Origin: Branchiostoma floridae
Taxonomy: Eukaryota; Chordata; Leptocardii; Amphioxiformes; Branchiostomatidae
DNA length: 64,000 nt
Assembly (NCBI RefSeq): GCF_000003815.2
Contig: NC_049986.1
Span: forward strand, 11,175,827 to 11,239,826
Direction: 5' to 3'
The first letter of the stretch is position 1. Each line of letters starts with the position of its first letter. The notes under the pieces were generated by a model, which had not been told where the DNA came from, searched no databases, and was given only the letters and a program-made list of their open reading frames with translations. Made by a program: the position numbers and the translations under genes. This document shows positions 14,801 through 43,800 of this stretch, piece by piece.

Positions 14801-17800
14801 AATCTAAAGATACAACACCCAAACAAAAGGCCCAGCTTAGCAGCTTGGTTTATGGGGGTAATTAAAGTTTTTATGGAGGGAAAAAATTACACAAATTGTT
14901 GGAACATATGATCACATGTTTCTAAATTGTTCTAAATAAAGAGTTATTTGTACCATTACTTTCCCAATGTTTCCAACATATGCAGGTAGGTTCAAACATG
15001 TTCAAACTTTCATTTTTAATTGTTTGAACAATTTAGAACTTAAGTGACTGAAATATTCTTTTGCTTAGAATAGTTCAAACTTATGACAAATATTATTTTA
15101 AAATCCTCTCGGTGACTCGGAATTGACTCTAATGTGACGTATGTCTGTGTGATGATTGACATATCAATTAAATGACATTTATGTAAATCAAGATTTGACT
15201 TGCATGATGAAAAGTCATAAATTCAATGTATTGAGGTACTATAGAGTACAGTATATTGTATACATGTGTTGTTTGCCTGCAGGCCTGACCTGATGGTGAA
15301 GAAGCTGAGATATTATGCCAGGTTCATCGTGGTCTGTCTGCTACTCAACAAGACTCACCTGGTCAGGGACCTGGTTAGGGTAAGTCTACAGTCGTTCCTC
15401 AAGTTATCTTACGTCACACTGTGTACATCTTTGTTTCTGGTACATATGTTTGTTACCGTTGGGGTGTTCCCATAGTACACTGTAAGTAGAGTGGCAGGAA
15501 GTGAGTAGGGAGATAGCAGCAAAGGTCAAAGTTGAAGTACAGTTCAGAGGTGGCAGAACTAGTTGTTATTCAGACATGCATATGAAAGTCATGAGGTCAA
15601 TTGAAGATGCTACTAATTCACCAGAGGCTATTATTTTTGGTATAATGTCTCATTGTCTGTGCTTTCACAGTTATATACTTTTGATATGCTAATGACAGTC
15701 ACCATAGACTGACTGTTGGAGGAAAAGACCAATGACACATGTAATGTTAACTGAAACCTTATTTGCATAATCAATAAAATAAGTACAACTTAACCAGGCA
15801 CTGTAAATATTTCATGGAGTCGTGAGATCTTTATACTCTTGTTGAATATGTGGCATGTACAAATTGGCAATGTTAATACATCACCACTTCAAAAGTATTT
15901 TTACTTACAGTGTTTGTTATAAAAGGAAATTTCACATCCTGGTAATATAAATTTAGTATATCCTGTTATGCATACTGTAAAATGTGAACATTTGGCAATC
16001 TAAAATTTGATGTGCTAACGTTAGTTCACCTTTATTCGTGGGGTGAACAATATCCGTTGTGTTGATTAAAAGAGTATCTAGGGATATCAAGTTGATGCGC
16101 AATGACGGACAGTGGTTTCAAATTACCATATTTTGATATTATTACAGTTTGAAATCCCTAAATACTTTGTTCTTAAAAACGGATATAGGTTACGGTGTCA
16201 GATAAAGGTGAACTAGCGTTACATGTATAAGATTTAAAATGTTCAATGAAATATCATTCATCACATACATATGTAGTCTAGCAAGGAGGTTATATCACTA
16301 TATGTGATATAACCTCCTTGAGTCTAGCAAATAGTGCTTTTTACTAACTTGCTTGCCACTCCAAAATCATATAAGATGAATACTGAAACCTATGATTAAG
16401 CCACCTGATATAACAGATTTACTTTATAATGTTAGCCTTGATGATTTAGTGAGTAGAACTATAATATGTACATTTATTTTGTACTTCTATTTTGTAGTTT
16501 GTAGTTGACAATATGAAATACATATTGTATTTGTATGATGTACATTTTGTTGCACCAATGAAGCTTCTTTTTTTTTTTCTTTTTGTATGGTCCCTCCAAG
16601 TTAAAGCATTTTACAGTACTGTATAACCTTTACGAATAAAATTGTCCTATTGTTTGTTTTTTTTCCCTGAAGGAGTTGTCCAAGCAGATCCAGGACTATG
16701 GGAGTACCTACGACCCTGGTGACCAGCTAGAGTGGTCACTGGTGCTGGGGGAGGTCCAGGCTTTTCTGGACGCCGAGCCACTGGTCATTCTGGACACGGA
16801 GTCGTCCCCCGTCACGATATCCCAGCGCCTGCAGAAGGACACCGTACCGCCGCTGGAACCAGGCACTGAAGTCAGACTGTCTCTACAGGAGGTCATCATA
16901 GTGGGCAACAGGAAGGACCAGGTGAGTGTCGTATACATTGTGAATTGTGATACTGTAAATTCAGTTATTTTTTAAGGGACTTAATTGCATTATAGGGGGA
17001 AAGGAAGTTTTTAACTGTGTTTTAGGTTTGTGTTTGAAACAAATACAGTCACCATTGAAAAACAACACGTAGTCCCAGTATCATGATTTCACATGCAGTA
17101 AGAGGTCACAGAGAAAACTGCAAATATGCAACCAATGCAAACATTTCAAGATTTACAGTACTGTAGCATGCTTAAGAGAAAAGATCACAAATCTGTCCTT
17201 GGTGCTGAAACCCCTCCACACAAAAGTTAAGATACCTGCCCTTGGTGCTGAATATCTCACAAGAGAAGGATGAATAATTACATCCAACAGCATCTGCTAC
17301 ATAAACAACAAGAGTCTGAAAACTCAAACCTGCTTGAAATATTTTGTTTTGTGATGGTGCGCATGGTGTGTTGTGGGGGTTGATATGGTTTGACGTTTGG
17401 CAAAATTATTCCATCATTGTTCTTAAGTTATATATCTACCTATGGTAAACAGTCAGATCCAAAACTACACCTTTCTGATGTCCTCATCATTTCATTTTTA
17501 TTTCTTATTGTTACACCTGCACCTGGCACATACATTGTATCTCAATGTGTATATAATGGTTAACACCATACAGAGGTGACAGCGATGGTCACAGTTGCTC
17601 TTTTTTGCTCCTTGGAAGATTTTGACCAGAATGCCCCAGCAGTTCTAGAGCAAGCTGCTAGAGGGCCCAAACATACAACACTTCTTCCTTACACCACAAG
17701 CTATGTGCCACCAAAAAATCAAGACCATAGCATATCCATGTCAAAAGATACAAAAATCCAAGTTCTGTTGCAGTACCAAGGTCACACACCAGGGGATCCA

Positions 17801-20800
17801 AACTTGACTTTGACCTTCGTCTTTCAAACATCTACCCAAATACCAAATATCATTACAATCCATCAACAGGTTCTAAAGTTATGCTGACCACAAATATGTG
17901 GAAACACAAACAGACACACACACAGACACACCAAAAACTATACCTCCATTTTTCATGGAGGTAAATATCATCACAATCACACGTTCTGTTCTGGAGATAT
18001 AGCACTGGAAACGACCCTTCCACACACTCCCATGCTACTGAAAATACAAAACAGATGTTACAGCTGCTAGCTGTCCCCAAGGAGGTTGAGACAGAGGGAA
18101 TGAGGCCAGATCACTCCATAACAGGAAAAGGGGTGTAAATATTTTTTTTTAAACGAACCACAAAACAACAGCAAACTTCTAATCTACTTAATAGCACAAT
18201 AGGTCACACACTCTATCCCCATAGCAAAGGAAATCGCAATCCATCCAGAGGTTCTAAAGATATAGGTCCGGAATCACAAAGATCCCTACCAGAAACAGTA
18301 CATGCTTTTTTCAAGCATGTAACAAATAAATCCTTCTGCAACCTTCCTCAGGACAATAATGATCAGTTCTACTTCCCACTGCTAGGTGGCGCTTCAGCAG
18401 TAATGATGCAGTCCCTATCATGATTAAGCTTATGTCCCCCATCATCAAACATATGTTGTACTATGTTGAACCTGCAGGTGAAGTTTAGTGAGCTGACAGT
18501 GGACATGTTCAGGATGCTGCAGACATTGGAGCGGGAGCCAGAGGGCCTCGATGCAACAGAGCAGACCACTAATGGTGCCCAACCGGAGAAGGAAGGGGAA
18601 ACAGGAGAGGTAAACAGCAATAACAACAATGGAACACAATTTTCTTGGAACACCCTGTCTTCCTTATGTCCTAGGTCAGAAAAGGTATGGACAATTAATC
18701 AGTGTTTAGCTGGGAGAGGTAAGGGATTGCAGTTGAATGGTTACGTAAAGCTAGTGCCTCTCGTATGAGAGATCTTCAGGTGTCAGCCTCAGTATTAAAC
18801 CTCTGCTGGTAAAAGAACCCAACACACGTTTAAAGAATACAATGTAGATCTAGAACATGTTACCCAGACCAACGGGCAAATGTGAGCCATATAGTGCTAC
18901 TAGTTACTTGAACACGCAATTAAAGATTATAATTGAAGAAGAAGAGATTGTTGATTGTGTGACACATGTATGAGGCAATATGCTCAGACTCAAACTCATG
19001 TTAACTCTCCCACTCCTGCTACAGAATGATGAAAACATCCCAGGAAAGAGAGAGAACCCACACAAGTACCTCCTGTACAAACCCACCTTCAGCCAACTCT
19101 ACACCTTCCTGGCTTCAGGATTCAAGGTATGGATGGAAACTAAAAAATCTGAAGGTTTTGAAACAATTTATGATTTAAAATCTTAATTCAAAGACTCAAA
19201 TTTATCTGACACATATTTTTGTATAATTTCAGGAGCTGCCACCAGATGGAGTTATGCTGGTGTACCTTTCTTCAACTGGGTCTACAGGCTGTTCTAAACC
19301 AGAGGATGAAGGTATCATATCAATCATACCAAGATAATTATTGATTATGATTCGTACATGAGGCACTAAAAAGAAGCCAAGTATGCATCCCTGCTATACA
19401 ATAATGTATTGCAAATCAACACCTATGAAGAATTGTAAACAAAGCAAAAATACCTATTATACCTACTTGGTCTCTACCATTCTCCCTGCCATGGATGTAT
19501 ATTGTGAATCAATTTTCCAATTTTCTCAAAATAGAGACAGAATGTTATTAAGTTATTTGAAGGTATGTAGAAAAATGTAAATGTCCACCCCATCATCCCT
19601 GATGGTTTGTCCCACCCCAGGTGCGTATGACTATGGAGGGGTGCTGACCAATAGCAGGAAGGAGGGGGAGGAGCTTATGAAGAAGTCAAAGCTGCTGAAG
19701 GACATGCACTGGTGAGGGAACATTTCTTTTTCACTATTGAACAAATGGCTGCTGACTATAGCAAACATGTGGTCCTGACAATAGTCACAGAGTAACAATA
19801 TACACAGCAATTTTTTAATGATTGCTTAATGATTACACACTACTGTTACTCTTCCAGTCTTGTGACAAAACATCATGTTTAATCATTTTGAAACAAAAAG
19901 TTCATGTCATTTAAACATTCTTTGGCCCACAATAATTTTGAATGATGGAATGATAATGTCCAGTAGTGTTCTCTGAGTTGAAACAACTCGTTACATGATG
20001 TCCCCCTGTTGTTCTGCTGTAGTCTCCATCCAGGTGACCTGTACCCCTTCACAAGGAAGCCTCTATTCCTGGTGGTGGACAGTGAAAACAGTGAGGTGTT
20101 CAAGGTAAGACTGTTTCCTACACAAACAATAGTAGGTAAAGTGTTCACACTTCATAGTGAAATATTTTAAAGACATTCAACAGGGCTGTCTCCGCAACCC
20201 GTCCCTCCGTCCTGGGATGGAAATCTACTTGTAGTTGGAACGGCAAAAAATTTCACGCCATCTGTCCAAAAATCTGAACTTCATGACATGAAACTAATGA
20301 AGACATTTTTGTAAGCTCAAAAATATTCTAAGCTGGAGACAGCCTTTACTTATTACAATATTCTTTTGATAAGTTATGAAAATTCTGGATCCATTTCCAT
20401 TTGTTTTCTATACTCTATGATACACAACAAAACAAGATTTAAAACCCATAGTAAGTTGTACATGTTTTTTTCTAGAACATGCCGAACCTGTTTGGCCAGC
20501 CCCGGTTGTGTCTGCTGTCTCCTGTTGCAGTTCCCACTGATGTTGTAGGTAAGATCTTAGGACTGTTGTTAACTTGTTAGACCTTGAAACAGTATAAATG
20601 TGTAGTCTCATGAATTAGAAAGAATTTAATAATGATGTCCACTTATAAACTACATCTATGATATGCATTTTTTGTTATCTGTAAATTGTTTTGTTTCAAC
20701 CAAATGATTTTGGTACTTTTAAACAAAAACTGATCTACAATGCACTTAACTCTCTTAATCTTATTACCCCATCCCCAGATGAAATAGCCAAGGGGAGCCT

Positions 20801-22049
20801 GTTTACCTTGTTCCTGCACTGCCCCCTGACCGGCCTCCTCACCATCTGTAAGCTGTCGGACATTCCCATTGCATCCTGGGAGCGTGCCCAGAGGCAGGTG
20901 GGAAGGATCCTGGAGGAGATTGCCAGACTGCTGATGGGCTGCAAGAGCGTGGGTGAGTTATGGGTGGGGAACATGGGTTGGTAACATGGGTGAGTTATGT
21001 CATGGGTGGGGAACATGGGTCAGTGTGTAACAATGTGGGTGAGTTACAATGTCATGGGTGGGGAACATGAGTTGGTAACTTGGGTGGGTAATGTGTGTGG
21101 GGTGACTTCATGGTGAGTAATGTGGTTAAGTAGTAATGTGTGTGGGTAGCCTCATTAGTGAGTAAGTTATGTGGTTATTTTCAAACATGATGGATAATCT
21201 CTTGTAACAAATTGTTATTGCAAGTCTGGAGAAAATTGTAGCCATAGTGCCTTATCTGTACAGAAATCTGAAGAAAAACTTGAATTATTTCTCCTCTGTA
21301 TGTCTTAGATGGAATGTACCACCAGTTCTATGGAGATGAGTTCCTGCGGCTGTTGTTGCTGCGGTTCGTGTTCTGTTACTGCGTCTTCAGACTGCACAGG
21401 GCATTCAAGGTCAGTTTATATGTTGCCATATGTACATTCCTTCTTCTCTTACAAATTTTTAATAGATCTGTGCAAAAAAGGTTGAATTCTATTACAACTT
21501 TCATCCTGCTATCTTCTCCACGTATAGCAAATCTGACGCTATCTGGCTTTTAGCTAGGATTTTATTGTAGGGGATCCAAATTTCTTAGTGACTAAGATTC
21601 ACCACGTGGGGAACACTATAGATGCAAGGTTTTATAGAAGTTTAAGTTAAAATGGTGCATTCTCAGGTATCCTGAAGGGCAAATTACTGTCCTAGTGGTC
21701 TTCAACTGTGACCTAGTGGCATTGCTGGTCAATTTTTATGCTCATCAGAGGATCTGCTCCCGAGTGTAAGGGCCTCTTCAGGGTGTCTAGAGCATCCACT
21801 TTCTTATTATTTTCAGAACAGTGTGTTAAATTGATGCCTGGCTATAAGCCTGGTTGCTACATGTGTTTTTGCCAAAGTAACTATTTTTTACATATTCCCC
21901 AGGGCCCAGCATACTACCCCCAGTGTCACCCCGAGCTGCCGAAGAACGAAGTTCTGGAGGCGCTGACCGTGCAGAAACAGCTGCTGGATCTGGCTTCCAC
22001 CCTGGACATCAGAGCCATGTTCTACGAGATAGATGAGTCTCTAGAGTAA
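8585..22049 (+). CDS. SCAI: SCAI, suppressor of cancer cell invasion
   Basis: Fifteen exons: 8585-8679, 10852-10947, 13919-14005, 14214-14312, 15283-15379, 16673-16921, 18478-18609, 19025-19126, 19233-19311, 19621-19711, 20023-20104, 20476-20548, 20779-20952, 21309-21409 and 21903-22049. They encode 567 residues; human SCAI has about 606. Blocks matching vertebrate SCAI nearly word for word include FCYLLDKSKQLFNGLRDLPQ, RWQIGEIASKIGQLYYHYYL, KKLRYYARFIVVCLLLNK, VKFSELTVDMFRMLQ, RENPHKYLLYKPTFSQLYTF, LHPGDLYPFTRKPLF and FGDEFLRLLL. In vertebrates SCAI is a nuclear cofactor that represses MRTF/SRF transcription and also acts with 53BP1 in DNA repair. The start is the first ATG in a frame continuous with the conserved exon. 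The regions around residues 170-240 and 270-290 diverge most. All introns appear GT-AG. Confidence 0.97.
8776..8845. repeat. (CT)n microsatellite
   Basis: About 70 bp of uninterrupted CT dinucleotide in SCAI intron 1, about 100 bp after the exon 1 donor. Confidence 0.97.
11514..11561. promoter_or_regulatory. Cluster of four CAGGTG/CACCTG E-boxes
   Basis: Perfect E-box hexamers occur at 11514-11519, 11522-11527, 11543-11548 and 11556-11561 in SCAI intron 2. CAGGTG is the site class bound by Snail/ZEB and class I bHLH proteins. Function is inferred only. Confidence 0.35.
13050..13272 (+). mobile_element. tRNA-derived SINE
   Basis: The head at about 13055-13119 is tRNA-like: a TCGG start pairs with a CCGA end, and a B-box-like GGGTTCAAACCCG is present. 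It is followed by a conserved SINE body (CTTGTGCCGTTAAGAAAGGC, then CACTTCACTCAGGTGAAAAT) and an A-rich tail. The body resembles those of deuterostome tRNA-SINEs. It lies in SCAI intron 2 and is not a functional tRNA gene. Confidence 0.8.
14418..15132. mobile_element. Inverted-repeat MITE in SCAI intron 4
   Basis: The left end AGAGTCAATTCC at about 14419 matches the inverse GGAATTGACTCT ending at about 15131. A similar CCAAGAGG / CCTCTCGG pair lies just inside. The interior is rich in TTCTAAA and GAACA motifs on both strands. No clear target duplication was found. Confidence 0.6.
16015..16222. mobile_element. MITE with TAACGTTAGTTCACC-type ends
   Basis: The left end TAACGTTAGTTCACCTTTAT is mirrored at the right end (ATAAAGGTGAACTAGCGTTA) with one change. 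A second inner pair, ATATCCGTT / AACGGATAT, extends the inverted repeat. It is in SCAI intron 5 and related to 2100-2286. Confidence 0.82.
16275..16327. mobile_element. Micro-palindrome element 1 with 7-bp target duplication
   Basis: The 39-bp near-perfect palindrome at 16282-16320 starts CAAGGAGGTTATATCAC and ends with the inverse. It is flanked by the identical 7-mer AGTCTAG at 16275-16281 and 16321-16327. It lies in SCAI intron 5. Confidence 0.85.
17580..17965. repeat. Dispersed repeat ending in a CCTCCAT hairpin
   Basis: It ends with an ACACA-rich stretch, then CAGACACACCAAAAAC, then a short hairpin with arms CCTCCAT and ATGGAGG. The same tail occurs at about 33241-33282, with a shared TTGACCTTCGT piece upstream. 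The left limit is a guess. Confidence 0.65.
20951..21180. repeat. Degenerate minisatellite containing the SCAI exon 13 donor
   Basis: Imperfect repeats are built from GGGTGAGTTA and CATGGGTGGGGAACATG. The decamer GGGTGAGTTA occurs at 20951-20960, which spans the exon 13 splice donor, and again at 20988-20997 and 21037-21046. Confidence 0.8.
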
Positions 22050-24230
22050 CAGTCTTATATGTGGTAACCAATATGTTTGACCTACTGTGTAGTGTATGAA
22101 CTGTATGAACAAAAAGGTTTATCCTTGTCAAAAGTCAATCTTTTATTAGATAAAAAAAATCATTGATCCTTTCAACAGTCAATCTTTTATTAGATAAAAA
22201 AATCATTAATACGTTGGGAGCAAAACTTTCTATAGAAAGATAAAGAGCTTCCACTAGTCAGTCAGAGACAGGTCAAAGAATTATGATTTTTTAATGCATT
22301 TGTGTAGCATGACAGTTGTTTTACCCATCTTGCCAGCAACAGTACATGACACTTAGTTTTGCTTGCCGATCTGGTATATGCACATGGACAGGTGCAATTA
22401 AAATTTGCATGGGAGTTTAGATTACCATCTATTACCATTGAGACAATAAAAGATATCTTTAGCATCTGAAGCTCCATTCATATAGGTACATGTAGATATG
22501 ATTTTGTTCTAGTGGAATTGTTTGATCATCTCACATATAGGCCCACATCCTTAGCTGAATTCTGCACTAAAAGCATTCAAAATGTGCATGTACATCAATG
22601 AAGGGTCTCTTTTTTTCAGTTCCACCTCAGTTGTATAAGGTAGAAACAGATTTTTGTTATGGCAAACTTATTACATGTAATAGAACTGTACTCTCTACAT
22701 CAAGCCATTACCCATTTACCTCCTGGATGTGATAAAACTCAGAACTTCTAGATCACAGGTATGTGTAGTTCAGTAAGTAGACTTGTCCCATGAATGTTTA
22801 GGTAGCTAGTTACATGTACCAAGGAGTTTGTGATATTACAACAATAAGTAGATAGGAAAACGTCTGAAGTGTCCGCTGTAAGTATTTGCTGTTGATAAAA
22901 AGTATTTATTGTTGACGAATGTTAAAGTACTACTGTTGTACATATGGATATATCTCTATATATATTGCTGTGTTGCAAAGCCACATATTGCTGTGCCAAA
23001 TGAACATTTGTTGCCAATGTCCTTCCTTTCAAGTTAATGTATGACAGATATCATCATGTAGAAACTGTCACAATAGATGTGAGTTAGTAATGTGCTAGTA
23101 TGCTAAAAAGCTTTTTGTAAACCTATGGTAGCTATCGTTGTTTCATATTAGCCAGATCATTCATAACAGTCTAGAGTGAAATTCAGAATCTTTGTAGGTG
23201 GTTTCAATGATTAAGCATTTATAACTCTGAATTCTTATGTAGGAATGTTAGTGTGTAGCACAGGTTATAGATAAATAAATGAAAATAAAGTGAAAAACAA
23301 GTAATCAAAGTCATATAGACAGACTTCACCATATTGACAAGTCATCAACAATATTGACAGACTTAAACTGTCTGAACCAGTTTGTTTGAGTGAGTGTTTC
23401 TAACATTTACTGTTGGATATTACTGTCTTGTATGTCATTTTCATCCTGTCACAAGATGTAACAGTGATGCTGATTGGACTATTCCCACCTAAATCAAAAT
23501 GTAATACTAATAGCTATCCTTATTGTTAAATTCCCACCCATACCAAAATGAAACAACCAACCTGATTGAAGGATTCCAAATGAAACTCATGCTTTTTAAG
23601 TTTTTGAAAGCCCTTGTGTACTCTGTTATAACAATTCTATGAAGTTTGGTTTAAAAAGGTATATATTTATATATTTGGATCCATTTATTTTCTATCATAA
23701 GTTTTATTAAAAACTTTAGGCTAATTTTACTCATACTTACTTGTTTATGTTTTCTTAAGAGGCATGTAAGTTGTACAATTCTATAATACTTTTTAATCAT
23801 TGTTGGTTTGTATCTGTTCAACATTTGTATATTCATATTCGTTGTTGAATGTGATATATGTTTTTTTCTGCTTACCTGGCTATTTTCATGTATAATTTGT
23901 GTAACTTTCTTATTTCAAGTATGTTTACAGACAGGAATTACACTTCCAATTATATACTTTTAGTTACACATAGAGTATATTAAATGTGTCTTTATTCTGG
24001 CTATTGTAGATATAGCATTGGAGCTGTGTACATTTGTATGACAACAGTTTCAGTATTGTCTTGAAGCTTCAATTACATGTATTTACATTGTTGTTGGATA
24101 TTTTGTTGTACTTTGTTCATTTGTTATAATGCTTAACCAACCAGTCCACTTCTTTACCCTTTTGTACAATCTCTTTAGCTTGGGCTTTGATATTGTTCAT
24201 TGAAATAAAACATCGAAATATTGAATAACC
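22050..24230 (+). other. Probable SCAI 3' UTR
   Basis: AT-rich non-coding sequence follows the SCAI stop. It contains an imperfect 45-bp-period tandem duplication at 22133-22208. Candidate polyadenylation signals are at 23274-23279 and 24204-24209. Confidence 0.5.
24204..24209 (+). terminator. Candidate SCAI polyadenylation signal AATAAA
   Basis: A canonical hexamer 2.15 kb after the SCAI stop, at the edge of transposon-rich DNA. An earlier one is at 23274. Confidence 0.4.
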
Positions 24231-24405
24231 AACACTCAGGGATCTTTTAGATTGTAACCATATTAGCAATATAGAAAATTAAGATATTCTATCTACTACA
24301 CAGACTATATAGATGATCTTGGGTAATACATTTGTAGGTTCACACAACAAATCCTAATGTCTATATTGCCCCGAGGACGGTAGGAAACGACATGTATTCA
24401 CATAC

Positions 24406-24540
24406 CCTGGGAGCCAGGCAGGACCGGGTAGCTAGCGAGTTTTGTTCAGGGATCCAAGGCAGTCAGCTAGCCCGCCGATCTCACATAAGCACTCCGGGGA
24501 GTTTAAGCCTGAAGGAGTTATAAAAGAACTCTGCTAACGC
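24406..24540. mobile_element. MITE of the TACCCTGGGAGCCAG family, half copy
   Basis: The sequence from TACCCTGGGAGCCAG through CTCCGGGGAGTTTAAGCCTG matches the left half of the copy at 24702-24905. The inverted right half is missing. Confidence 0.75.
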
Positions 24541-24701
24541 TTTACACTAATTCCACACACTGCCCCTTTCACTTGTGGTACCCACAACCAAAAAGACAGA
24601 TGGGTCAATTATGTTTATGTCATCTACAGCACTTGTTATCATAATCAATATGCATTAGTCATGCCAAACGGTGGGGACTTGCCAAGATATCTGTGAATAC
24701 T

Positions 24702-24905
24702 ACCCTGGGAGCCAGCCGGGATCGGACAGCTAGCGAGTTTTGTTCAGGGATCCAAGGCAGTTAGCCTGCCGATCTCACATTAGCGCTCCGGGGAGTTTAA
24801 GCCTGAAGAAGTTATTAAAGGGCAGGTGGACTTCATCGGGCTTAAACTCCCCGGGGTGCTAATAGGAGATCGGTGGGCCTGACTGTCCGGACCACCGAAT
24901 AAACT
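24702..24905. mobile_element. MITE of the TACCCTGGGAGCCAG family, second copy
   Basis: The left arm repeats the sequence at 24406-24540. It is followed by an inverted arm containing GGGCTTAAACTCCCCGG and GGAGATCGG. The extreme right end has decayed. Confidence 0.8.
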
Positions 24906-26573: not shown

Positions 26574-26601
26574 GTGTGTCCAAGGAGCTCCTTGGTGTGT
26601 C
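26574..26601. mobile_element. Micro-palindrome element 4, only 14 bp, with 7-bp target duplication
   Basis: The perfect palindrome CAAGGAGCTCCTTG at 26581-26594 is flanked by identical GTGTGTC 7-mers at 26574-26580 and 26595-26601. It lies inside the spacer of the foldback element. Confidence 0.75.
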
Positions 26602-27302: not shown

Positions 27303-27392
27303 ATATGACATGTCTCCTTTACACTGTTGAATAGAAGTGGTCGATTTTGCAAATTCTCTGTGATTGTCTCTTTCTGAACAATAGCCACATTC

Positions 27393-31696: not shown

Positions 31697-31776
<80 letters not shown>

Positions 31777-34700
31777 CGCATCTTTTGTATCGCATATCGT
31801 GCTTTTCTTTTCCGCACTTCTTTCTTCTGACCTTCCTTCAATTTGGAAGCGTGACAGAAGCATTACGCTGAGAATGTAGTAATTATCGATTACCAATACG
31901 GGATTATCGTTGCGTATCGAATACAAGTATCACACTAGTATCGCACAAAGCAAGCGATGAAATAAACCGAAATGATTTAGATGTAGAGTGTTAGCTGGGA
32001 GTCAGTGATCATGTGATTACATTATCTGGCCACAACGTTCCCAGATAAATGAGTTATTGGTCTGTCTATATCTGTAAAAAATCAAAGAGAATGGCGTAAC
32101 CTGAAATAAGACAAAAAGGAAATTGGAGCAAATGAGATAAGGTATAAATGGAATCAACCTAATGAAATAAAGTAAAGTGAAGAAGATGAAACAGAATGAA
32201 ACGAAATGGAAGAATATCCAAAGAAGGATGCGTGGCAGATGTACTTTAGATCCTCAACGGACTCCATAATCAATGGACCAGTTACAAAGTTGTTCCAACA
32301 CGAAGGAAGCACTCACCATGAATCTACACAGATGAGTTTTCATTCGAATAGTCAAGACCAGCTTTAATTCTTTTTTTCCGTCCCTCTCATTGTTTGGGAG
32401 TCAATGTTGTTGATTTTCATCAATTTTATGTACTGAAGTTCAGATTTTGGGAACGGATGGGGTGAAATTTTTGTTCGTTTCAACAAGCAAATTTCTGTCC
32501 CGGGACAGAGGAATGGATCCTGGAGACTGCCCTGGCACTCACTACCCACCTTTCTCGGCGTATGGGATGCCCATACACTTGCCGTCCTCTCCCCTGAACT
32601 TCCAGCCGTGGAAGGGGCACTGTAGACAGTCTCCCACCACCGTGCCTCCCATGGACAGGTCCGCACCCAGGTGGGGACAGTAGGCATCCAGCACAGACAC
32701 GCTCCCACCAGCACTCCGGAACACGGCAAGCTTCTCTCCTAGAAAAACGGGGTTTTGTTACGGTGGTACAAAGAATATTAAATGCCTTTGGTCCTTCCGG
32801 AACACAGCAGGTTTCTACGCCAGAAAAACGTGCTTTTGTTACCATGTTTCAATGAATAGGAAGGCAAGTAAAATGTGTTTAATTGGTCCAAAAGGATTTA
32901 TTTTTGTAGCCTCCGCTAGGCCTTCCTAATGGGATCTGGATAGTAGAATTCGGTAGCCTGGGTACCATACGGATAGTAGTTCGCTCCTATGTTCGCTTCT
33001 GCTATCCACAGAGAAGCGACTGTATATAGTGTATAATGAACACCGGAGCGAACCACTTTCCGGATGGTACCCAGGCTAAGAATTCGGTAAATGTATGGTG
33101 AACAAGATATAAAAAACGGAAGTTCCGCTGCAGTGTCTTGGACAGCCGATAGGGGGCCCACAATAGAACTTGACCTTCGTTTTCTTGCCACCAACCAAGT
33201 ATCACGCACACACGTACACACACAGACACACGCACACGAGCAGACAGACCAAAAACAATGCCTCCATTTTTCATGAAGGTAACAATGGTAACTGCGCTAG
33301 CAAATAAAACCCTATGGTGGCCAAATTCCTTCCAGTAAATCAGTCTTTCTTTAGCTACATAATATAACTTCAACTTAAACGATTTCAGCTAGCGTTATTA
33401 GTCTGGTGGAGACTATTCTTACTCAGGGTATTATCTCATTATTTTTGTACAATGCACACATAAAGATATAGTGACAATTTGTCCCCATATCTTTATGTAT
33501 GCAATGAAAAAAGAAGAAGTGTAATAAAATTGTAATTTCCATCGCTGTATCAACATCTCACGTGACAAGCCGACTACCTTATGATGTAAGGTAGTCGGCG
33601 TCATTAGGGCAAAAGAAATTGCCACACCTCATTTGCAGAAGATCCTGTATCTATTTGTTTAGAACAAACCGTTGAAGACCACGCCCCCACCAATTGACTG
33701 TGATTTCAAAGTGCCCCTCCCACTATTCATTGTGCAGTGTGTAATTTGTGACACGGCCCCGCCCCGGGCCGGTTAATTGCTACTCTAAATGAAGATGTAA
33801 TTGTAACTGCAGATTTAAATGCACTGTTAAGTTAAGTCCAGTGCATGAGGCAAGGTTGTCTTGGCGGATGCCTGCACTTTACCAGTAACAGCCTTTGTAA
33901 AAAAAACTTGTTAAAATACATTTCCTGACGCCCCTTGGGATTTTCAAATGGTACCGCCCTAGTAATTAGATTGTGTTGAGCAGATCAAGGGCTCAGCATT
34001 TGTTACTGAGTAATTCATGGCTTGTTTTCGGACGCATTGATCGCCGTTGAGCGTGCTGAATACACGTATGTTGACAGTAGTCCCAGTGACATGCCACACC
34101 CCAACGAAACTCAGAATGGCCGCTTCCGGAATCAACAAAGCGTGACTATTGGTCTGTTGGAAGTCTGTGTCGGTGCGACATTGGCATGACATGTCGGGAC
34201 AATTGGGGTATTGCAGGTCTTACTTTGGCAACCCAAGCCAAACTGACTCATTTTTCTTTACACGTGCAACAGAGCGCTGAAAATGGATCACGCTGTGGTT
34301 AACCCTGCTCTTTGTTCTCAGTAGAAAGGGTTAACACGCTTTGTAGACACACTGTAGTGTGTGATGGGACAATTCCGTTAGAAACATACGCCACCCCGCC
34401 CACCAACACACATACACACAAGCACACACTAATAATGCATATTCGAGAAATATAGAATGACTGTCCCTGTGTGGGTTAGCCTGGGTACCCAATCCTGAAG
34501 GTACTAAGTAGTTCGCTCTGACGTTTATCATACACTATAACGTTATACAGTCGCTTCTTTGCTGTTCCAGAGAGATTATAGGAGCGAACTAATAGTACTA
34601 ACCGGATGGTACTAATGCTAAATATGGGTCGCCAAGCATTGACATGTAAGCTGTAACGCTACAATAAAAAGTTACACGATTACTTTACACCAATAGAGCA

Positions 34701-35213
34701 TCAATGAACGCGGCCTGTGCGTTGATATATCTCGACAAAGAGCTGTAAAAACCGTGACTCAGAAATTCAAACACGCAAAGCCTTACCGAGTACTGTTACT
34801 CCCTCCACTTGGTTAGGTCGGAGTTGACAGGAGTCCATCACCCTGAACCAGCCGTTCGGGTACACGGGCGGCAGCTCGCCTCTCCTCCGCCGCCGACGCA
34901 CGTCGTTCGCAACGTCCTTGCGAGTGTAGCCGGCAAGTTTGTTGTACCCGACATCGTGAAGAGTCCGACTGATCTTCAATGGACACAGTAGAAGCCGGTA
35001 AAGCCAGGCCGCTATGGCAACACCAACGCCATACAGGGCGAGTTGACTAACAGGTGGGCACTGCCATGGTGTTGACCAGAACTTGTCCCCGATGAGGGCT
35101 AGCGCCCATGCAGCATGGATATCCACTGCCTTGTCCTGTACCAACCCTACCGTAGCTAGGGACGGCACTAGTATGACCAACACCAGTAGGAAAAGGTACC
35201 TGTAGGTCGGCAT
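29268..35213 (-). CDS. nvd: Cholesterol 7-desaturase, Rieske oxygenase Neverland/DAF-36
   Basis: Six exons on the minus strand: 35213-34787, 32738-32550, 31505-31327, 30679-30434, 29862-29689 and 29429-29268, giving 458 residues, typical for the family. Hydrophobic segments near residues 6-24 and 57-77 suggest membrane anchoring. The basic [20 protein letters not shown] block is characteristic. The Rieske [2Fe-2S] site is C163-x-H165 and C183-x2-H186 (YCPHLG, CPFHGW). The mononuclear iron motif is E269-N-A-A-D-I-A-H276-L-N-Y-L-H281. Family members convert cholesterol to 7-dehydrocholesterol, the first step of ecdysteroid and dafachronic acid synthesis; the role in chordates is unknown. It is divergent from HSD17B8 with 1.24 kb between starts. 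Intron 1 carries two MITEs and intron 2 a GT microsatellite. Confidence 0.96.
31702..31774. repeat. (GT)n microsatellite
   Basis: About 73 bp of GT dinucleotide in neverland intron 2. Confidence 0.97.
32945..33087. mobile_element. Intact MITE with 9-bp target duplication
   Basis: The 125-bp element at 32954-33078 has ends TAGCCTGGGTACCAT and GGTACCCAGGCTA and an inner GTTCGCTCC / GGAGCGAAC pair. It is flanked by identical AGAATTCGG at 32945-32953 and 33079-33087. It lies in neverland intron 1. Confidence 0.92.
33108..33285. repeat. Dispersed repeat with CCTCCAT hairpin tail (second copy)
   Basis: It starts with CGGAAGTTCCGCTGCAGTG, which is also present at 57597-57615. It ends with an AGACC-AAAAAC-CCTCCATTTTTCATG tail shared with 17923-17964, preceded by TTGACCTTCGT and a CA-rich stretch. 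Confidence 0.7.
33449..33506. repeat. Short inverted repeat, 17-bp arms
   Basis: TGCACACATAAAGATAT pairs with ATATCTTTATGTATGCA with one mismatch across an 18-bp loop. It lies in neverland intron 1. Confidence 0.7.
33569..33599. repeat. 31-bp perfect hairpin
   Basis: The arms GCCGACTACCTTA and TAAGGTAGTCGGC surround a 5-base loop. No flanking direct repeat was found, unlike the CAAGGA palindromes. Confidence 0.8.
34477..34620. mobile_element. Second copy of the TAGCCTGGGTACC MITE
   Basis: Ends TAGCCTGGGTACC and GGATGGTACTAATGCTA plus an inner GTTCGCTC / GAGCGAAC pair match the copy at 32954-33078. The flanks TGTGTGGGT and AATATGGGT agree at 6 of 9 positions, suggesting an older insertion. 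Confidence 0.8.
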
Positions 35214-36456
35214 CGCTGTTGAGTCCGTACCTCTGCCCAGGTGTCACCCCCCTCAGTAACACGAGCGGCCGCTTTGTTTACGCTATAAGATGCGGCTGTT
35301 TTACGACATGGTAAACAGAAGCTGGAGTCACCAAGCACGCTGCCATGACGGCAACAAAACAAAACAAAAAGAACGTAACCCTAGCTTCAGGACGAATCGA
35401 ACAGGTGTTTTGAAAGTCAACGCCCTGTCGTACGTACGTTCGACGTGTTCCAACGTACGGCTCTGACAGAAGACGTTACCAAACTATGATGCTTGTTACC
35501 ATGACGACGTTACGAGTTTGTCATCGCAAGGCTACCGAGTCTTTGATCTACAGTACTGCTGACGCTGTTGAGGCAAATATCAAACGAATCCACCCACTCA
35601 GACGGCACAAAGACTTTTGATTGGTACATGGGATTAGCCAGATAAAATCGCGCGCTTCGGAGGGCCCCAGGTAACAACCGGTCTTCAGCACAATGAGTTG
35701 TTACGTGACGAGCCTGTGACGAAGGTGGAAATATTTCATTGTCGTCAGAAGCAACGAGAACTTACGAAATCAAACCAAATGTAGAAAAGGGGCAGTTCTT
35801 CCTCTTATTTTCTTGAGTCTGCCGTGTTCAACTTATTGAAGATTCTGTATCCTATGACGTTACTTGTTAGACATTATAATGAAGATTGATTGATTAAGGA
35901 GAGTTGTCACAGGTGTTCAAGGTGTGGTTTACCTGTAAAATCACACTGTCATTGTTGTTAACATGTTGGTTACTAAACACCCATTGATGTACAACTTTAC
36001 GATATTGGTGATCCACAGACACTAAATATGTCTATCAGACAAAGAGAGGCCAAAACATCAAAAAAATATTTCCTGTCTGCCTGAATCTTTTTCTCTATTG
36101 TAAAAGTTAGAATCACAGACACAACGTAACAGGTGCCAGCTCCATTTTGAGTACGAATCCCTGCTGATATGTGCGTCATCTATCAACATTAATCTGAACT
36201 GCAGGGAAGCTTGCGCTTCTGTACATCTTTGAGTAATGACCTTGCATTCAATCAACCAATGGTGTGGCCGTTTTTCTCAAAGGTATTTAAACCATGTATT
36301 TCGAGTTTTGCGCTGTCAAACTAACAAACGATGGTGAAAACCATATTCAAACTTCGCGGGTGACAGAAAAGTGAGACCTGTTCTCTTATTGGTCAGGTAT
36401 AACACGACGTCTTTCATTGGCGGAGAGGGCTTTCTACTCTAGTTTCGCAAGGCAAG
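35214..36456. other. Divergent intergenic region of neverland and HSD17B8
   Basis: This 1.24-kb stretch should contain both promoters. No further gene was seen. Confidence 0.5.
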
Positions 36457-36464
36457 ATGGCGGC
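36453..36464 (+). promoter_or_regulatory. YY1-type element overlapping the HSD17B8 start codon
   Basis: CAAGATGGCGGC matches the classical YY1 consensus and spans the initiator ATG. This arrangement is common in animal housekeeping genes, where the site usually sits just downstream of the transcription start. Confidence 0.55.
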
Positions 36465-39054
36465 CGGTACTGGACGTTTGGTAGGACGGTTGGCACTTGT
36501 TACAGGTGATCATAGCTGCAATAAAGTTACATGGATATCAGAAATGTTTAGTATGGAGTATGTTAAAGTGGTGGCTACAACGAGACTGAAATTTCGTGAT
36601 TTGCCTAGCTCCTCAGTTCAAAGTTTGCCCTTTAACAGCAATGCCAATAAAACCATGCAGGTCATCAATGCAGTGGTCGAATACTTCATGTACATTTAAA
36701 ACATTGAAACAAAAAGGCTCGTTTATATGGAAGGTTATCATTTACATAAAGGCTCAGCAAAACCCACTGACAACATATATTATTTGGTTGACCAAGAATA
36801 TAGATTTAGGTTTAGAATATATCAAAGACCCATGAAAAAATAAATTTAGGTTGACATTTGCATTTTGAAGTGAGATTTGAAGCATCATCTGCATCCTTCA
36901 GTCTCAGATTTGATGCTAAATTATTCATGTAGCACTTTTCAGATTAATGGTTAATGTTATGTTTTATGACTAAAACTATCCATTTCATTGCAATTAGTTC
37001 CATTACAGCATAATCCCTCATTTTGCACATTTTATGAAATGCTGTGCCATCATTCCCAAGCTGGAAGATTTTGCATATTGCTGTCAACTTAACTTCCGTC
37101 CGGAAACTGATTTTTGAAGCTACTAGTAAACGTGTGTCAACTTTTTACTAGGTGGAGGCAGTGGCATTGGGAGAGCAGTCTGTCAGGCATTGGCAGCCCA
37201 GGGGTCAAAGGTGGCAGTGGTGGACATCAATGAAGCACCAGCCAATGAGACGCTCCAGTCCCTGTCATGTGACCAAGGCTTACAACATCACAGTTTTGGC
37301 TGTGATGTGTCCTCTACCCAGTCTGTCAGTCGACTACTGACTGATGTTACCCAGAAGTTTTCCTGTGCTCCTTGTATCACTGTGAACTGTGCTGGAATCA
37401 CCAAGGATGAGTTCCTCTTGAAAATGGACAACAGAATGTTTGATCAAGTTATCAAAGTCAATCTCAAGGTAAGATCTTAGAAATTTATCAAACAGTATAA
37501 AAGGGGTAGTTTCTGCTGATATGGTCTTGTAAAAGTTTGTTTGCGGTTGTCATTGACTTTGCATAATTGAAAAACTTTTTCACTTCATGATATATTTCTG
37601 ATAGCCCAGCTGTCTGATATGGTCTTGTCAAATTATGTCGGTAAATATCAGTGACTTTTACAATTGAATACTAGTACCACCTTTTTTCCAGGGCACATTT
37701 CTGATAACCCAGGCAGTAGGCAGGGCTATGGTAGAGGGCAAAATCCAAAATGGTTCCATCATCAACATGGCCAGTATTGTTGGCAAGGTGAGGACCTTAA
37801 GTTGGACTTGTACAATTTTACTATTCTATATACCAATAAATTACCTGTATCTATGGTACAAGAGATTTACATTTTTCTTCCTCTATACTAAAAATTGTAA
37901 TCTATTCCATTTAACTAACAGGTTGGAAATCTTGGTCAATGCAACTATGCTGCCTCTAAAGCTGGAGTGGAGGGGCTCACCAGGACAAGTGCCAAGGAAC
38001 TAGCCAAGTGAGGATAATACTCTGCGTATGACCTTTGTTAAGAGTCAAAGCATGTGCATGTACTACAGGGAATTCATACATGGAAGAGGAGTTTATTGAC
38101 AGATATGCACACAAATTTGCCACTTTGTTTTTCAAAGAATTTGTCACACTCAATAACTCATAGCAAATCTATGGACATTATCATTATCAGCTGTCTTTAT
38201 GCAGTTTTGATTTCTGCCATTTTCTTGCTTTATTTATAGGTTTGGAATCAGGTGTAATGCCGTTCTGCCTGGATTTATTGAAACACCAATGACTGATGCT
38301 GTGCCACAGAAAGTTCTGGACAAGGTGAGATGAAAGAACCTCTTTGATTGGTAATATCAAATCAACAATGACTGATGCTGAATCAAATGAAGTGCTGGAT
38401 GAGGTCAGATGAAGGAGTCTATTTGATTAGTGAGATCAAACAACACCATTCAATGGCCACCTTACTATGTAAAAACATCAATTTACACATGTATATTTTC
38501 CATTTCAGTTTAGAGATGTTATACCAATGGGCAGGCTTGGCAAACCGTCAGGTAAGAAGGTCATGTTAAATGATAACATTCTTTATTTCCTTTGTCAATT
38601 TCTTTGTCAATAGATGATGCTATACAATGACTTAAAAAGGCCTGAGCAAATGAGGATTTTTTCCAGATATAGCAGATGTTTGTGTATTCCTGGCTTCTGA
38701 AGAGAGCAGTTATATAACAGGAGCAAGTATTGAAGTAACAGGTACGTTGTCTTAACATAATCACCTTATGTAGAAACAAGAATAAATTTGTGAATCTGAA
38801 ATATGCAAAACCAAGGACGTTATATTATATGTGATATAACGTCCTTGGCAAAACCAATGACCTACATCTCTGGCAACCTAACAGGAAAAAGTGCAACTGA
38901 TTTTTTGCTTGTGTATGCCTAATCATGATGACTACTGTCATATTTTAAGGTCCAATATTAAGTCAGATATTGTTCTTGATTCAAGCATGAGCTGTGGTAT
39001 AGATAATAAATAACAGATGGTTTTGTTATTCCCTTAGGTGGCCTGAACATATAA
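36457..39054 (+). CDS. HSD17B8: HSD17B8, (3R)-3-hydroxyacyl-CoA / 17-beta-hydroxysteroid dehydrogenase
   Basis: Eight exons: 36457-36505, 37152-37468, 37692-37787, 37922-38007, 38240-38324, 38509-38551, 38667-38741 and 39038-39054, giving 255 residues; human has 261. This is a short-chain dehydrogenase: the nucleotide-binding motif TGGGSGIG is formed across the exon 1/2 junction, NCAG follows, the catalytic Ser is in NMASIVGK, Y-x3-K is in NYAASKAG, and the substrate loop is [10 protein letters not shown]. Family-specific blocks [22 protein letters not shown] and the terminal EVTGGL separate it from other FabG-like enzymes. In mammals it pairs with CBR4 as the mitochondrial 3-ketoacyl-ACP reductase, supplying the NAD-linked alpha subunit, and can oxidise estradiol. 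Exon 8 codes for only six residues including the split glycine. Confidence 0.95.
38805..38854. mobile_element. Micro-palindrome element 2 with 7-bp target duplication
   Basis: The 36-bp palindrome at 38812-38847 starts CAAGGACGTTATAT and ends with the inverse. It is flanked by identical GCAAAAC at 38805-38811 and 38848-38854. It lies in HSD17B8 intron 7 and is very similar to element 1 apart from a 3-bp central deletion and a compensated arm change. Confidence 0.85.
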
Positions 39055-39408
39055 CAACCTGCTATGAGGACTATGCAGACAGCTCAGGGATCAATTTAGA
39101 GTCATTTCTATCTTAAAAAAACTGTTTGGTTTTCAACCAGTTTTGTACAAAATTTGATAGACAAAGGTTTCATCTTGTAAGATTAATGTAAGTGGGATGG
39201 AAGGGAAGAATACTTTAAGGAAAAAAAATGAGCGTAATTGTGAGGAATTAAAAATTTTAAGCTACATAAAATCCTGGTTGCTTTGGTCAAATGATGACCT
39301 TGATTTCATATTCATAAAAATCTATTGAGAGTGCCTCTCCATTCTTGATAATAACTCAAGATTTTGCTACCATTATGACTACCATATATATATATATGCA
39401 TACACAGG

Positions 39409-39435
39409 CTTATATAAGAGTCACTCTTATATAAG
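39409..39435. repeat. 27-bp hairpin next to a TA-rich stretch
   Basis: CTTATATAAGAG and CTCTTATATAAG surround a TCA loop. There is no flanking direct repeat. It lies in the HSD17B8 3' region. Confidence 0.75.
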
Positions 39436-40299
39436 GTTGACCCATATAATACTTATGTAAGTCAAGATTACATATCTCAAGATATTAATAGCCATACTTT
39501 ATTGTACAGTTCTTTGCAAACCAGTTATACAGTAAAGCAACTTTATGTACAAAACAACAAACTCAAAATGAGTGTGGAACTGAAAATAATTGGAACTACA
39601 GGAGTAAAATATAAGGCAAATAAACTTGTGATCAAATCATGATAAAGTGACTCAAGTAACCAATGTTGATCCATGGTTTTGTATAAACTAAGTGTTAATA
39701 TAGTGGCTTTGTAAGTAGTGTGGTTAATGTGCAGAGCTCCAGATAATGATCAATCCTCTGTAGAAGGGTAAATACCAATTCCTTGCAATCCTGGCACGCC
39801 CATGCATCTATCATTCTTTTCTTCTTTTAAAAGTCTTTCCACACATACCACATCATTGCACAATAACAGGTGTAAAACTGGAAAATACAATCCATGTGTA
39901 ATAATATGCTTTAATAATCTGATGGCACAGGCAGAAATATTGGTACATGTACATGTACATCTATGTTACTGTTTTTTCATGGGTTCCTTTCAAGCATCCT
40001 TTATGTGTACGCATATCTATATACATCTTCACAGCTATTTTGTACCCACTGCACTTCATCCATGACCTGACAAAAACACCTTTGCACAAAGAGCAGCAAC
40101 AACATACAGCAGCACACTAAGCCCTGCCTATTTATCTCTAATCCGCTGGTCGTGCATTGCAAGAGAACTCCATAGGAATAAATACTCATCCATACAAAGT
40201 TATAGCATAGAAAATATCAATTGCATTGATAATCTGCTTATCCTTTAGTGCTATATACGTAACATATCAAACTTTGACAAAGACCTTAAAGGTTGTATA

Positions 40300-40508
40300 T
40301 ACTATAAATGCAATTAAGTTCGCGGGGATTTAATTTCGCAGTAGCGGGGAAAATGACTTCGCGTGGTTTTAATTTCGCGGTAACACCATAGACTGCAGTC
40401 TAATACCATTATAAAAAAATGTTTGCGGTGGTTTTAAATTCGCGGTGAAGTGGTCACCGCAAAAACCATGAACATTAATCCACCGCGAACATTTCTGCAT
40501 TTACAGTA
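40300..40508. mobile_element. MITE with TA target duplication and TTCGCGG repeats
   Basis: The 205-bp element at 40302-40506 starts CTATAAATGCAATTAAG and ends GAACATTTCTGCATTTACAG, bounded by TA on both sides. The interior carries repeated TTCGCGG and CCGCGAA motifs. Elements of this look are widespread in marine invertebrate genomes. Confidence 0.85.
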
Positions 40509-40867
40509 CATCCTCAAACATATATAAGCCCACTGCTAATCAGGACAAAGCTGCGCTGTCCTTGTAGTTCAGTCATTCTTGGATGATGCAAATGACCATC
40601 ATCACTTCACAAAGTAACATAGGTACTCGACATACATTTGTACTACAAAATGGACAACTTTTATATTTACAAGGTGATGAACATTTTCTTTTGTTCAGTC
40701 AAGAGTTACAGTCCTCTGCAGCTCAGTGAATGAGGCTACACATCCCTTATAAAGGTGGTAATATGGCCCACATTGGAGCAACCTATTTCCAGATTGGTTG
40801 AAACCATTCAGAACCATTCAGCCTGCTTTTACTAGATCAACACCTGTGAAGGCCAGACATGTCCTCA

Positions 40868-43800
40868 TCACTTCTGTTTCTTCAGTCTCTTCATGTGTCG
40901 ACTCGCTCCTGATGGGCGTTTCTTCCTCAGCTTCTCCTGAACATCGGAGTACTTCTTCTTGTTATACCTAAAAGATAAAGGGAAATTGCTTCATGTCCAG
41001 GTACTTCCAGCCTGCTACCTTAATGGGAGGGATTACCAAATAGACTTTCCTATGCCATACATGGTTAAGACATGCAAATACAATCACTTCAAAACACAGT
41101 TATTTACCTACATTTCAAATTTTAACCCCCACTGCAAAGCTGGCAGGTCTGAATTGGTTCAAAACGCTACAGGTCATCTCCGGAATTTCAATGAGCTACA
41201 GCTAAAAGAATGAAATAACACCAGGATTTCACCCCCTATTTCAATGGGTCAGTCCAGCCAGTGACCTCCAATTCAGAGGTCACCTACAGGTCTAACATGA
41301 CACAAAAGTCACAGCAAGGAGCTTTTACCTGATATAAAAGCTCCTTGGTCACAGGTTGTTTGTTTTTTTGCAAACTTTTAGAATAGACATGCTTCTGTCA
41401 TGCGTAACAGAAAACTCAACCTTTTTCATTTAAAAAATTGCCCAGGAAAATATATTTGATTTAATGTTCGGGCTAAGTGTGCCCTAAACTGCATAACTCC
41501 AATTTTTGCCCCTTCCCCAAAGTCCCTCTTTTCAACCTCCTTGCTGTTATTAAGTGATGGCAAAGAAAATATGGATGCATGTCCTGTTTCTTCATGTCTC
41601 GTGTTTGGCCACAAGACATGAAGAAAAAGGTACGAAATGGGAAGCCTGATAAAAATGCCTAAAAACACGTCAGAACAGCTTAGAGAGTAGCATTTGGGTA
41701 TACCACAAGATGCCAGTGTCATTTTATTTTGCCAGCTCCAAAATTAGAGAATCTTGAAATTCTTTGGGATCATAGGTGCTTTGTCACATAAATACAGGTA
41801 GTATTGAAGTGAATCCAAAACTGTCAATTTTACCTGCAGTTTTAACCCCAGCTAATAGGAGGCGCTGGTGAAATGGGTCCTCTTAGGTAGGCACAAACAC
41901 TCATCATCATGGCTGCCTTAGGGTAATTATTTACACCTGTCAATTCCATCCAATGCTAATCAGGTGTTTAGTACTTTATGGAAAGACCCAAATCAAATGT
42001 TATAATTATCTTTATATAAATAAATCCTCATATGTTGTAAGTTGGGACCAGATGTCAACATTAGATTTTAGGATCAGAATAGTAACACACTTATACTAGC
42101 ATCACATATTTTGTCTGATGCAATAAAGTGAACCCTCTATCATGGCCACAAGAGAGACTTTCTTTCGGACCCACCAATCGCCTAGTTTCTCTCAGCTTTT
42201 AGGTACATAAATGAATATTTAGTCATCGCAATGAGCAAAAGTGTTCATTAATACCGGGTTATTTGCAATAAGAAAGTTCTCAGACTAGAGGTAACTATTT
42301 TTGTTGCTTTCAACATACTTACTTTCTGAACTCGGCATCTGCCAGTAGTTCATCCACAATGGTAGCCTTCCTGTCCTTCTTTGGGACCCGTGAACGGTAG
42401 AAGTCAGCGGGGCTGTCCTCCACTGTACCCATCTACATGTATGTGTGTAGCAATACATTAGCAACATTCAGAGAGCCTACTTAGATATGTACACACTTGC
42501 AGAGTACACAATATAAGACAAATGAAAAATTTTCAGCTAAATTCTAAATAAATTTTTGTGTCAAAATATTTTGGATCCAAATTAATTTTCTCAGAAGGCC
42601 ACGCTAATAATCACAATTTTATTTTTCAGAAAACTGAACTTTTAATTTTAATTCTATTTAAAAAATTTTAAATGTCCTTGTTGTTCAGATCTTTACTTTA
42701 CTATGCTATACTAACATTAATTATTGAAAGTAATACGTACCTGGAAGTACTTAGGGTATGCCTCTCTGTCATTTTTCTTGTAGAATCTTTTGGGGTCCAA
42801 AACCTTTCGCATCTTCAACACATCCAGGTCATTCTTAGTTTCAGCTGTCAGCTCAGGAGCCTTCATGTCAAACCATTTCCTGCCTGTCGATGCTTCGCGT
42901 TCCTCCTGTAATCATGCACACAAACATATTATGTTAATGTTCACAGAAGGTAAACATCGTTTTTGCCCTGTTTCTTCTCCAAACAAATAAGGTCCAGGAC
43001 CAGGCAGCTGTTACCATGGTTACCGGTAAAGTAGCAGGCACCCTATGGTATTTGGTTACATAATGTAAAAAATGGCTTGATACAGAGCTAGAGGGGCTCA
43101 GGTCACTAAATTTAGAAATGTGTTGGAATAAGAATAAACATAACAGTTGCCATTGTTAGACTACAACATGTGAAGGTGAACATTATGTATTTGCTGTTAC
43201 CTTTCTAGTTACATTATGTATTATGCTAAAATATAACAAATTCATGCACCTATCCAATTCTTAAAGGTCATCCCCTATATGTGTAGCATATAAAATTTTA
43301 GAAATTATAAAAGTATAAAGAAAATTCCTTGGGGGAAAACTATTCAGCCATGGTACAGGAAATATAACCTGTAACTTAGCTGTGACATATACAATACAGT
43401 TCCATGTAAGTCATGCTACAATGCTAAAGTACAAGGCACCTTTCTTTTCTTCTTCAGCTGCTTGACAGTTTCCTTGTAAGGAGGCACGCTGTGCTTCTGC
43501 TCAAAGTCTGGAGTCACCACACTCTTTTTCATTATCTGGAAGAAACAACAAGAATTAAGTCTTCTTTCCAAAAAGTTTAACCATGTTTCCGTCTACTTTT
43601 GATCACCATCTTTCACGAATACTTTATATCTTTTTAGTACCACACCAATTTTATTTGTTGCTTCTCAAATTCTGCTGTCCTATTTTTTCCACTTTGAGGA
43701 AGGAAAGAAAAATTTACTGCCTCTCCTGACTTCCAAATAAACGATGGGCCTCAAATTTCTGTGCCTGTACATGTTAATATTGGATGGTAGGTATATTATT

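Follow-up and report, generated by a model that had tools for sequence, protein, structure and literature searches.

We analysed a 64,000-nucleotide stretch of the Branchiostoma floridae genome (contig NC_049986.1, positions 11,175,827 to 11,239,826 of the forward strand; hereafter the window), in which four short palindromes begin with CAAGGA and end with TCCTTG. As a sequence-only reading of this DNA had reported, they are 39, 14, 36 and 33 bp long and each is flanked by a different, perfect 7-bp direct repeat. The pattern CAAGGA-N(2-30)-TCCTTG occurs four times in the window, versus a mean of 0.10 and a maximum of 2 in 100 dinucleotide-preserving shuffles. The palindromes and their flanking target site duplications (TSDs) are as follows.

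16282..16320, no strand: palindrome 1, 39 bp; 17 nt of terminal repeat (CAAGGAGGTTATATCAC), TATAT and another 17 nt of terminal repeat, counted genome-wide under the CAAGGAGGTT pattern
16275..16281 (left) and 16321..16327 (right), no strand: TSD AGTCTAG of palindrome 1
26581..26594, no strand: palindrome 2, 14 bp; CAAGGAGCTCCTTG, two short arms
26574..26580 (left) and 26595..26601 (right), no strand: TSD GTGTGTC of palindrome 2
38812..38847, no strand: palindrome 3, 36 bp; arms of the CAAGGACGTTATATCAC type, counted genome-wide under the CAAGGACGTT pattern
38805..38811 (left) and 38848..38854 (right), no strand: TSD GCAAAAC of palindrome 3
41315..41347, no strand: palindrome 4, 33 bp; arms of the CAAGGAGCTTTTA type, counted genome-wide under the CAAGGAGCTT pattern
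41308..41314 (left) and 41348..41354 (right), no strand: TSD GTCACAG of palindrome 4

The 17+5+17 layout of palindrome 1 was read from the sequence. So was the way in which the arms of palindrome 2 can overlap, on the self-complementary AGCT of the CAAGGAGCTT terminus; these arms are too short for the parent type to be certain. Our combined findings indicate that the palindromes are not miniature elements, but rather excision footprints (scars) of cut-and-paste transposons of the P superfamily, a reading to which we assign a probability of about 0.93.

A genome-wide scan against a control, which the sequence-only reading had suggested, bore out the excess seen in the window. The genome searched comprised 513,431,437 bp in 431 contigs and the reversed pattern served as the control. 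CAAGGA/TCCTTG palindromes with gaps of 2-30 numbered 6,814, versus 826 for the control, and those with gaps of 31-60 numbered 2,091 versus 873, the excess in this longer class consisting partly of neighbouring scars that had been merged and partly of a conserved repeat of about 59-70 bp that has no relation to them. Strict terminus types, defined by at least 10 bp at each end, were found 1,535 times for CAAGGAGGTT, 564 times for CAAGGAGCTT and 403 times for CAAGGACGTT, with controls of 0, 0 and 0.

We then compared the flanks. For the CAAGGAGCTT type (564 genome-wide), flanks were examined for 20 of the 50 listed rows, in list order: 19 had TSDs matching at 7/7 positions and one at 6/7, all 20 duplications being different, whereas flanks swapped between sites matched at 7 positions in 0/380 comparisons and at 6 in 3/380. 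A broader sample of 313,706 bp was made up of the window and loci mostly around the first-listed places on C1 (L004 and L025-L027, covered by other loci, were omitted); it is thus not random, and it includes chance palindromes. Of its 52 palindromes, 22 had 7/7 flanks and 8 more had 6/7, compared with 0.04% and 0.49%, respectively, when flanks were swapped between sites. The other 22 reached at most 5/7, among them L002, where the repeat is of 8 bp. Counted by length, exact adjacent repeats were present at 1 (4 bp), 0 (5 bp), 0 (6 bp), 22 (7 bp), 1 (8 bp) and 0 (9 bp) of the 52 palindromes. With this excess over swapped flanks in the fetched samples, the 7-bp repeats behave as TSDs of a DNA transposon, as had been claimed from the window alone. 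The 41 sites with an exact duplication yielded a scar-derived target motif, TNNGTNNNACNNA, whose symmetry is built in by averaging over both orientations; G (0.57) and T (0.72) prevail at duplication positions 1-2 and T (0.73) three bases outside. A preference for palindromic targets of this kind, the duplication being bounded by GT...AC, is a feature of the P superfamily.

Full-length elements, including non-autonomous ones of about 1.2 kb, share both the CAAGGAG(C/G)TT ends and the 7-bp duplications with the palindromes. Searching the genome with Pfam for the P-element catalytic domain returned three places, two of which (the C19 and C11 elements) are collinear over ~7-8 kb. The C19 element (C19:10308832-10317273, 8,442 bp) has CTCTAAC on both sides, and the C11 element (C11:17071456-17080139, 8,684 bp) has AAGTCAT on both sides and identical terminal 38 bp; thus both carry terminal inverted repeats and a TSD matching at 7/7, as expected for the P superfamily, in which duplications are of 7 or 8 bp. 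At the third place, a fragment on C6 (L030), a CAAGGAG(C/G)TT end was not found within the 10 kb fetched; further transposase matches in the genome were weaker. Both large elements encode parts of the P catalytic core with its GTP-binding insertion (TNP-like RNaseH_N, GBD and RNaseH_C), which defines the superfamily: the C19 element matched PF21787 at 7.2e-22, PF21788 at 1.9e-5 and PF21789 at 2.9e-8, and the C11 element, scanned for the RNase H parts, matched PF21787 at 3.7e-21 and PF21789 at 3.3e-7. A phmmer search of a 360-aa transposase stretch against PDB sequences gave no match to P transposase. A P-like transposase had been a guess from the window, and it fits these domains; a search for a transposase gene bounded by CAAGGA termini had also been suggested, and such elements exist.

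These large elements have shorter relatives. The first 160 bp of one of them recurs in the genome: of 61 candidates 40 were scored, and the 40 matches listed, which include the element itself, begin at the first base of CAAGGA in 38 cases. One relative, L051, is non-autonomous and 1,190 bp long; its terminal repeats measure ~33 bp, and TTCAAAC flanks it on either side. At ten further places, the right end lay inside the fetched stretch at 8, with a duplication of 7/7 at 7 of these and 6/7 at 1; of the two missing right ends, only one could later be located. The duplications of that pair and of four additional pairs, all read by eye, match at 7/7. For the two large elements, first-guess right ends at L028:9728 and L029:183 lacked a matching duplication and were rejected, the 27-mer count and further fetching placing the true ends farther out. 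Among ten places with C11-type relatives, four are complete, all with 7/7 duplications, and the other six share one flank, representing a single insertion inside another repeat that is uninformative on duplication.

The exact terminal 27-mer of the C19/L051 type occurs 71 times genome-wide, with 58 occurrences forming 29 inverted pairs and 13 unpaired, including one that is part of a scar. Twenty-five of the pairs span 1,179-1,208 bp and the others 1,371, 1,547, 4,111 and 8,442 bp, the last being the C19 transposase element. For this type there are thus 13-19 scars per intact copy (564 versus 29 exact pairs, or at most 42 when every unpaired end is counted), an upper estimate in that the scar pattern may include sister types sharing the first ten bases. 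In palindrome 4, the right arm is TATATCAG, a variant of the TATCAG present in this known parent.

The length of element end retained in the palindromes carries our interpretation. For the C19/L051 type we used 50 listed rows of the 564, from the first places on C1 and C2 (two of them overlapping) and with a total length of at most 50 bp. Their 100 arms match the parent for 10-19 nt and none for 20, in a terminal repeat of ~33 bp. The ends of a mobile element should be whole, yet these arms stop short of the parent repeat, and therefore we read the palindromes as scars. A miniature inverted-repeat transposable element would be a conserved unit with both complete terminal repeats, whereas in 50/50 listed rows the ~33-bp repeat ends before 20 nt. 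Both target duplications are kept around the truncated ends of a known element in 20/20 fetched palindromes of the known-parent type (19 at 7/7, one at 6/7). Two plain arms of up to 17 nt explain 24 of the 50 rows and arms of up to 18 nt explain 28, a number that is still 28 when up to 27 nt are allowed. Genome-wide and with no limit on length, at most 13 of the 71 exact 27-nt ends are unpaired, and thus few scars can keep 27 nt. For the CAAGGAGGTT pattern, 47 of the 50 listed rows do not exceed 40 bp, and for the CAAGGACGTT type 43 of the 50 listed rows do not exceed 34 bp. Of the latter 50, 32 fit two arms of up to 17 nt, with exact 17+17 joins among them, and 10 of these 32 have 4-base overlaps, versus 7.5% of simulated blunt joins.

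We propose that such scars would arise as follows. A P-like element would insert at a target resembling TNNGTNNNACNNA and 7 bp would be duplicated, a duplication displayed by the intact copies. Excision by a P-type transposase would follow, through a widely staggered cut after which each flank would carry a 3' overhang made of ~17 nt of terminal repeat; we infer this step from how much of the ends is retained and from what the Drosophila enzyme does. Host repair would then connect the overhangs, either directly, via short overlaps or by adding a few bases of filler. The lasting scar would consist of a duplication, usually at most 17-18 nt of one end, optional filler, usually at most 17-18 nt of the other end, and the second duplication. 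Such scars are probably immobile themselves, and they would come to exceed intact copies because every excision would leave a permanent mark. By analogy with Drosophila, the arm stops, at 17-18 nt in the C19 type and at 19-21 nt in two C11-type rows, indirectly suggest a ~17-nt staggered cut inside the terminal repeat.

The sequence-only reading had instead taken the palindromes for ultra-short elements of 14-39 bp, non-autonomous but mobilised in their own right through cutting and pasting by a transposase. Such elements would account for the perfect 7-bp duplications, for palindromes numbering in the thousands and for the identical junctions that some of them share. They would, however, have to accommodate 35 distinct junctions in the 50 listed C19/L051-type rows, arms as short as 7 nt (window position 26581) or 5 nt (L003:914), terminal repeats that end well within the ~33-bp repeat, and full-length elements bearing the same ends. 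Moreover, the transposase binding sites, which in Drosophila P lie internal to the terminal repeats according to the accessible part of PMC7776569, would be missing. We therefore consider mobile units of this size very improbable and the palindromes better explained as remnants left after excision of full-length P-like elements. Slightly less probable still are internal deletion derivatives, produced when gap repair of the excision site is interrupted, as opposed to plain joining of the cut ends, since the few copies with arms longer than 20 nt that would fit them (C1:3569083 and C1:10092319) are set against the many arm lengths, up to the whole element, that gap repair should give, none reaching 20 nt in the 50 listed rows, at most 13/71 exact 27-nt ends being unpaired and counts dropping from 6,814 (control 826) for gaps of 2-30 to 2,091 (control 873) for gaps of 31-60.

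Several observations weigh against excision footprints. Inserted or other bases, rather than two plain arms, are present in 22 of the 50 listed C19/L051-type rows, and 18 of the 50 listed CAAGGACGTT-type rows likewise do not consist of two plain arms; for the latter type the 17-nt strings were taken from the scars themselves and provide no independent test of a ceiling. Few rows could be assigned to the C11 type, two of which keep 19 and 19-21 nt, and the arm ceiling of this type may be slightly longer. Rare copies have clearly longer arms: by eye, C1:3569083 retains 34 nt and C1:10092319 retains 26 and 28 nt. The C19/L051 type shows no clear enrichment of overlaps, with 18 of 28 gap-free joins overlapping by 1-2 nt versus 30 of 64 simulated blunt joins. 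Some junctions recur, such as a 31-mer present in 7 of the 50 rows, and a tiny mobile unit would account for such recurrence as well. Among 2,320 CAAGG/CCTTG pairs separated by over 45 bp, taken from loci that, the window excepted, were no longer than 10 kb, a length that restricts this comparison, none had a 7/7 duplication and two had 6/7, one of which merely joins neighbouring scars. For two of the four types in the window, the fetched loci contained no intact parent: none had a terminus type exactly matching palindrome 1, nor was there one of the type of palindrome 3. Finally, no same-site pair of intact element and scar, or of clearly empty site and scar, was found among three further paralogues of a duplicated insertion site at L005.

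At that site, L005:158-185 and L005:4952-4976 represent one insertion in a duplicated segment (79% identical) with two different scars that differ in which arm is better preserved, the left in one and the right in the other. This favours excision, although at 79% identity mutation of a single old scar could also have produced both. Of the three further paralogues, L123 matches one of the scars in its right part, L124 is unaligned there, and L125 has no palindrome and is too diverged to be called empty; as empty sites they are thus ambiguous. The L005 scars adjoin a repeated stretch that, by eye, resembles zinc-finger coding sequence.

P-element excision products are known from experiments. According to the accessible parts of two reports (PMC2895639, PMC7776569), cleavage by the P transposase of Drosophila produces 3' overhangs of 17 nt, and end-joining products have the same layout as the scars described here, with inserts that are often A- and T-rich. 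In both systems the two duplications are kept, with at most 17 nt per terminal repeat in Drosophila, and the ends are joined directly, by microhomology or with inserts. They differ in that Drosophila P has an 8-bp duplication and CATGATGAAATAACATA ends, rather than 7 bp and CAAGGAG(C/G)TT ends, and in that its products were recovered in experiments, whereas the thousands of amphioxus scars arose naturally. Galileo, a P-superfamily element of Drosophila, resembles the amphioxus elements in having a 7-bp duplication and a palindromic target, GTANTAC rather than TNNGTNNNACNNA, as described in the accessible part of PMC4168063, which reports target motifs similar in kind for P, 1360 and Galileo and does not mention excision scars. 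Unlike the terminal repeats of Galileo, described as long and internally repetitive in the accessible part of PMC3573991, those found here are ~33-40 bp. In the literature searched, which took in few subscription papers and no repeat database, we found no description of these scars or of the RAG1-N/P-transposase combination described below.

Read as scars, an apparent new class of miniature transposon becomes a readable record of excision. The genome would then hold a natural record of several thousand end-joining events at defined overhangs, and end-joining preferences in a chordate germline could be measured from sequence alone, across thousands of repaired breaks whose starting ends are known. 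The scars also suggest a P-type ~17-nt staggered cut in a 7-bp-duplication lineage far from flies. Surveys for inverted repeats with duplications can take scars for elements, and scars can outnumber their source elements.

The large elements also contain a region resembling the N-terminal part of RAG1. One open frame of the C19 element (L028:3192-5492, + strand; 767 aa) holds both the P RNase H domain and a RAG1 N-terminal-like region, which matches PF12560 at 3.5e-10 over the first 103 aa and at 7.1e-8 over the full frame. The pieces for GTP binding and for the C-terminal RNase H are found downstream in a different frame, an arrangement that exons could have. In a PDB comparison, the RAG1-N-like region of C19 matched RAG1 at 6e-4 for the whole sequence. 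The RAG1-N-like region of the C11 element (L029:6251-7009, - strand; 7.2e-10) is in a separate frame that begins upstream of the RNase H frame. Genome-wide, PF12560 gave 7 matches, the C19 element included and the C11 element absent. At a further RAG1-N-like locus, on C9 (L126), the 1.5 kb fetched contained a RAG1-N end followed by a long linker and did not extend to any catalytic part. An N-terminal THAP DNA-binding domain is typical of the P superfamily, though not universal. Ten protein scans of frames from both elements, covering part of the exons, gave no THAP match, the RAG1-N-like region lying upstream instead. We tentatively suggest, at rather less than even odds, that the large parents are P-superfamily transposons with a RAG1-N-like region ahead of the P core and that, if the two form a single protein, the N-terminal part of vertebrate RAG1 may derive from P-superfamily elements and its core from Transib. 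The accessible part of PMC8355894, which considers an N-RAG-TP-like source for the RAG1 N-terminal part, names no superfamily. Aplysia N-RAG-TP is likewise a mobile element carrying a RAG1 N-terminal-like region, but is described there as entirely RAG1-N-like, whereas here the region accompanies P-superfamily transposase domains. A second gene of ~350 aa, similar in both large elements, lies on the opposite strand near the right end (L028:8177-9235, - strand; L029:543-1595, + strand) and had no Pfam match.

Three lone CAAGGAGGTT ends were seen in the window, at 18078 (+), 41543 (-) and 62335 (-), for which a partner or duplication was not found; they are perhaps one-sided scars or eroded elements. 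The six C11-type places that share one flank are half-eroded copies inside an apparent larger repeat:

C3:4867490-4868175
C3:4876550-4877290
C4:23230705-23231380
C5:6599590-6600270
C6:525195-525880
C18:4135030-4135500

The palindromic repeat of 59-70 bp that contributes to the longer gap class has the form CAAGGAGTATAGCCGGC...TCCTTG and, unlike the scars, a largely conserved interior. It was observed at the following places:

C1:939227
C1:1650953
C1:4380295
C1:6728129
C1:6761967

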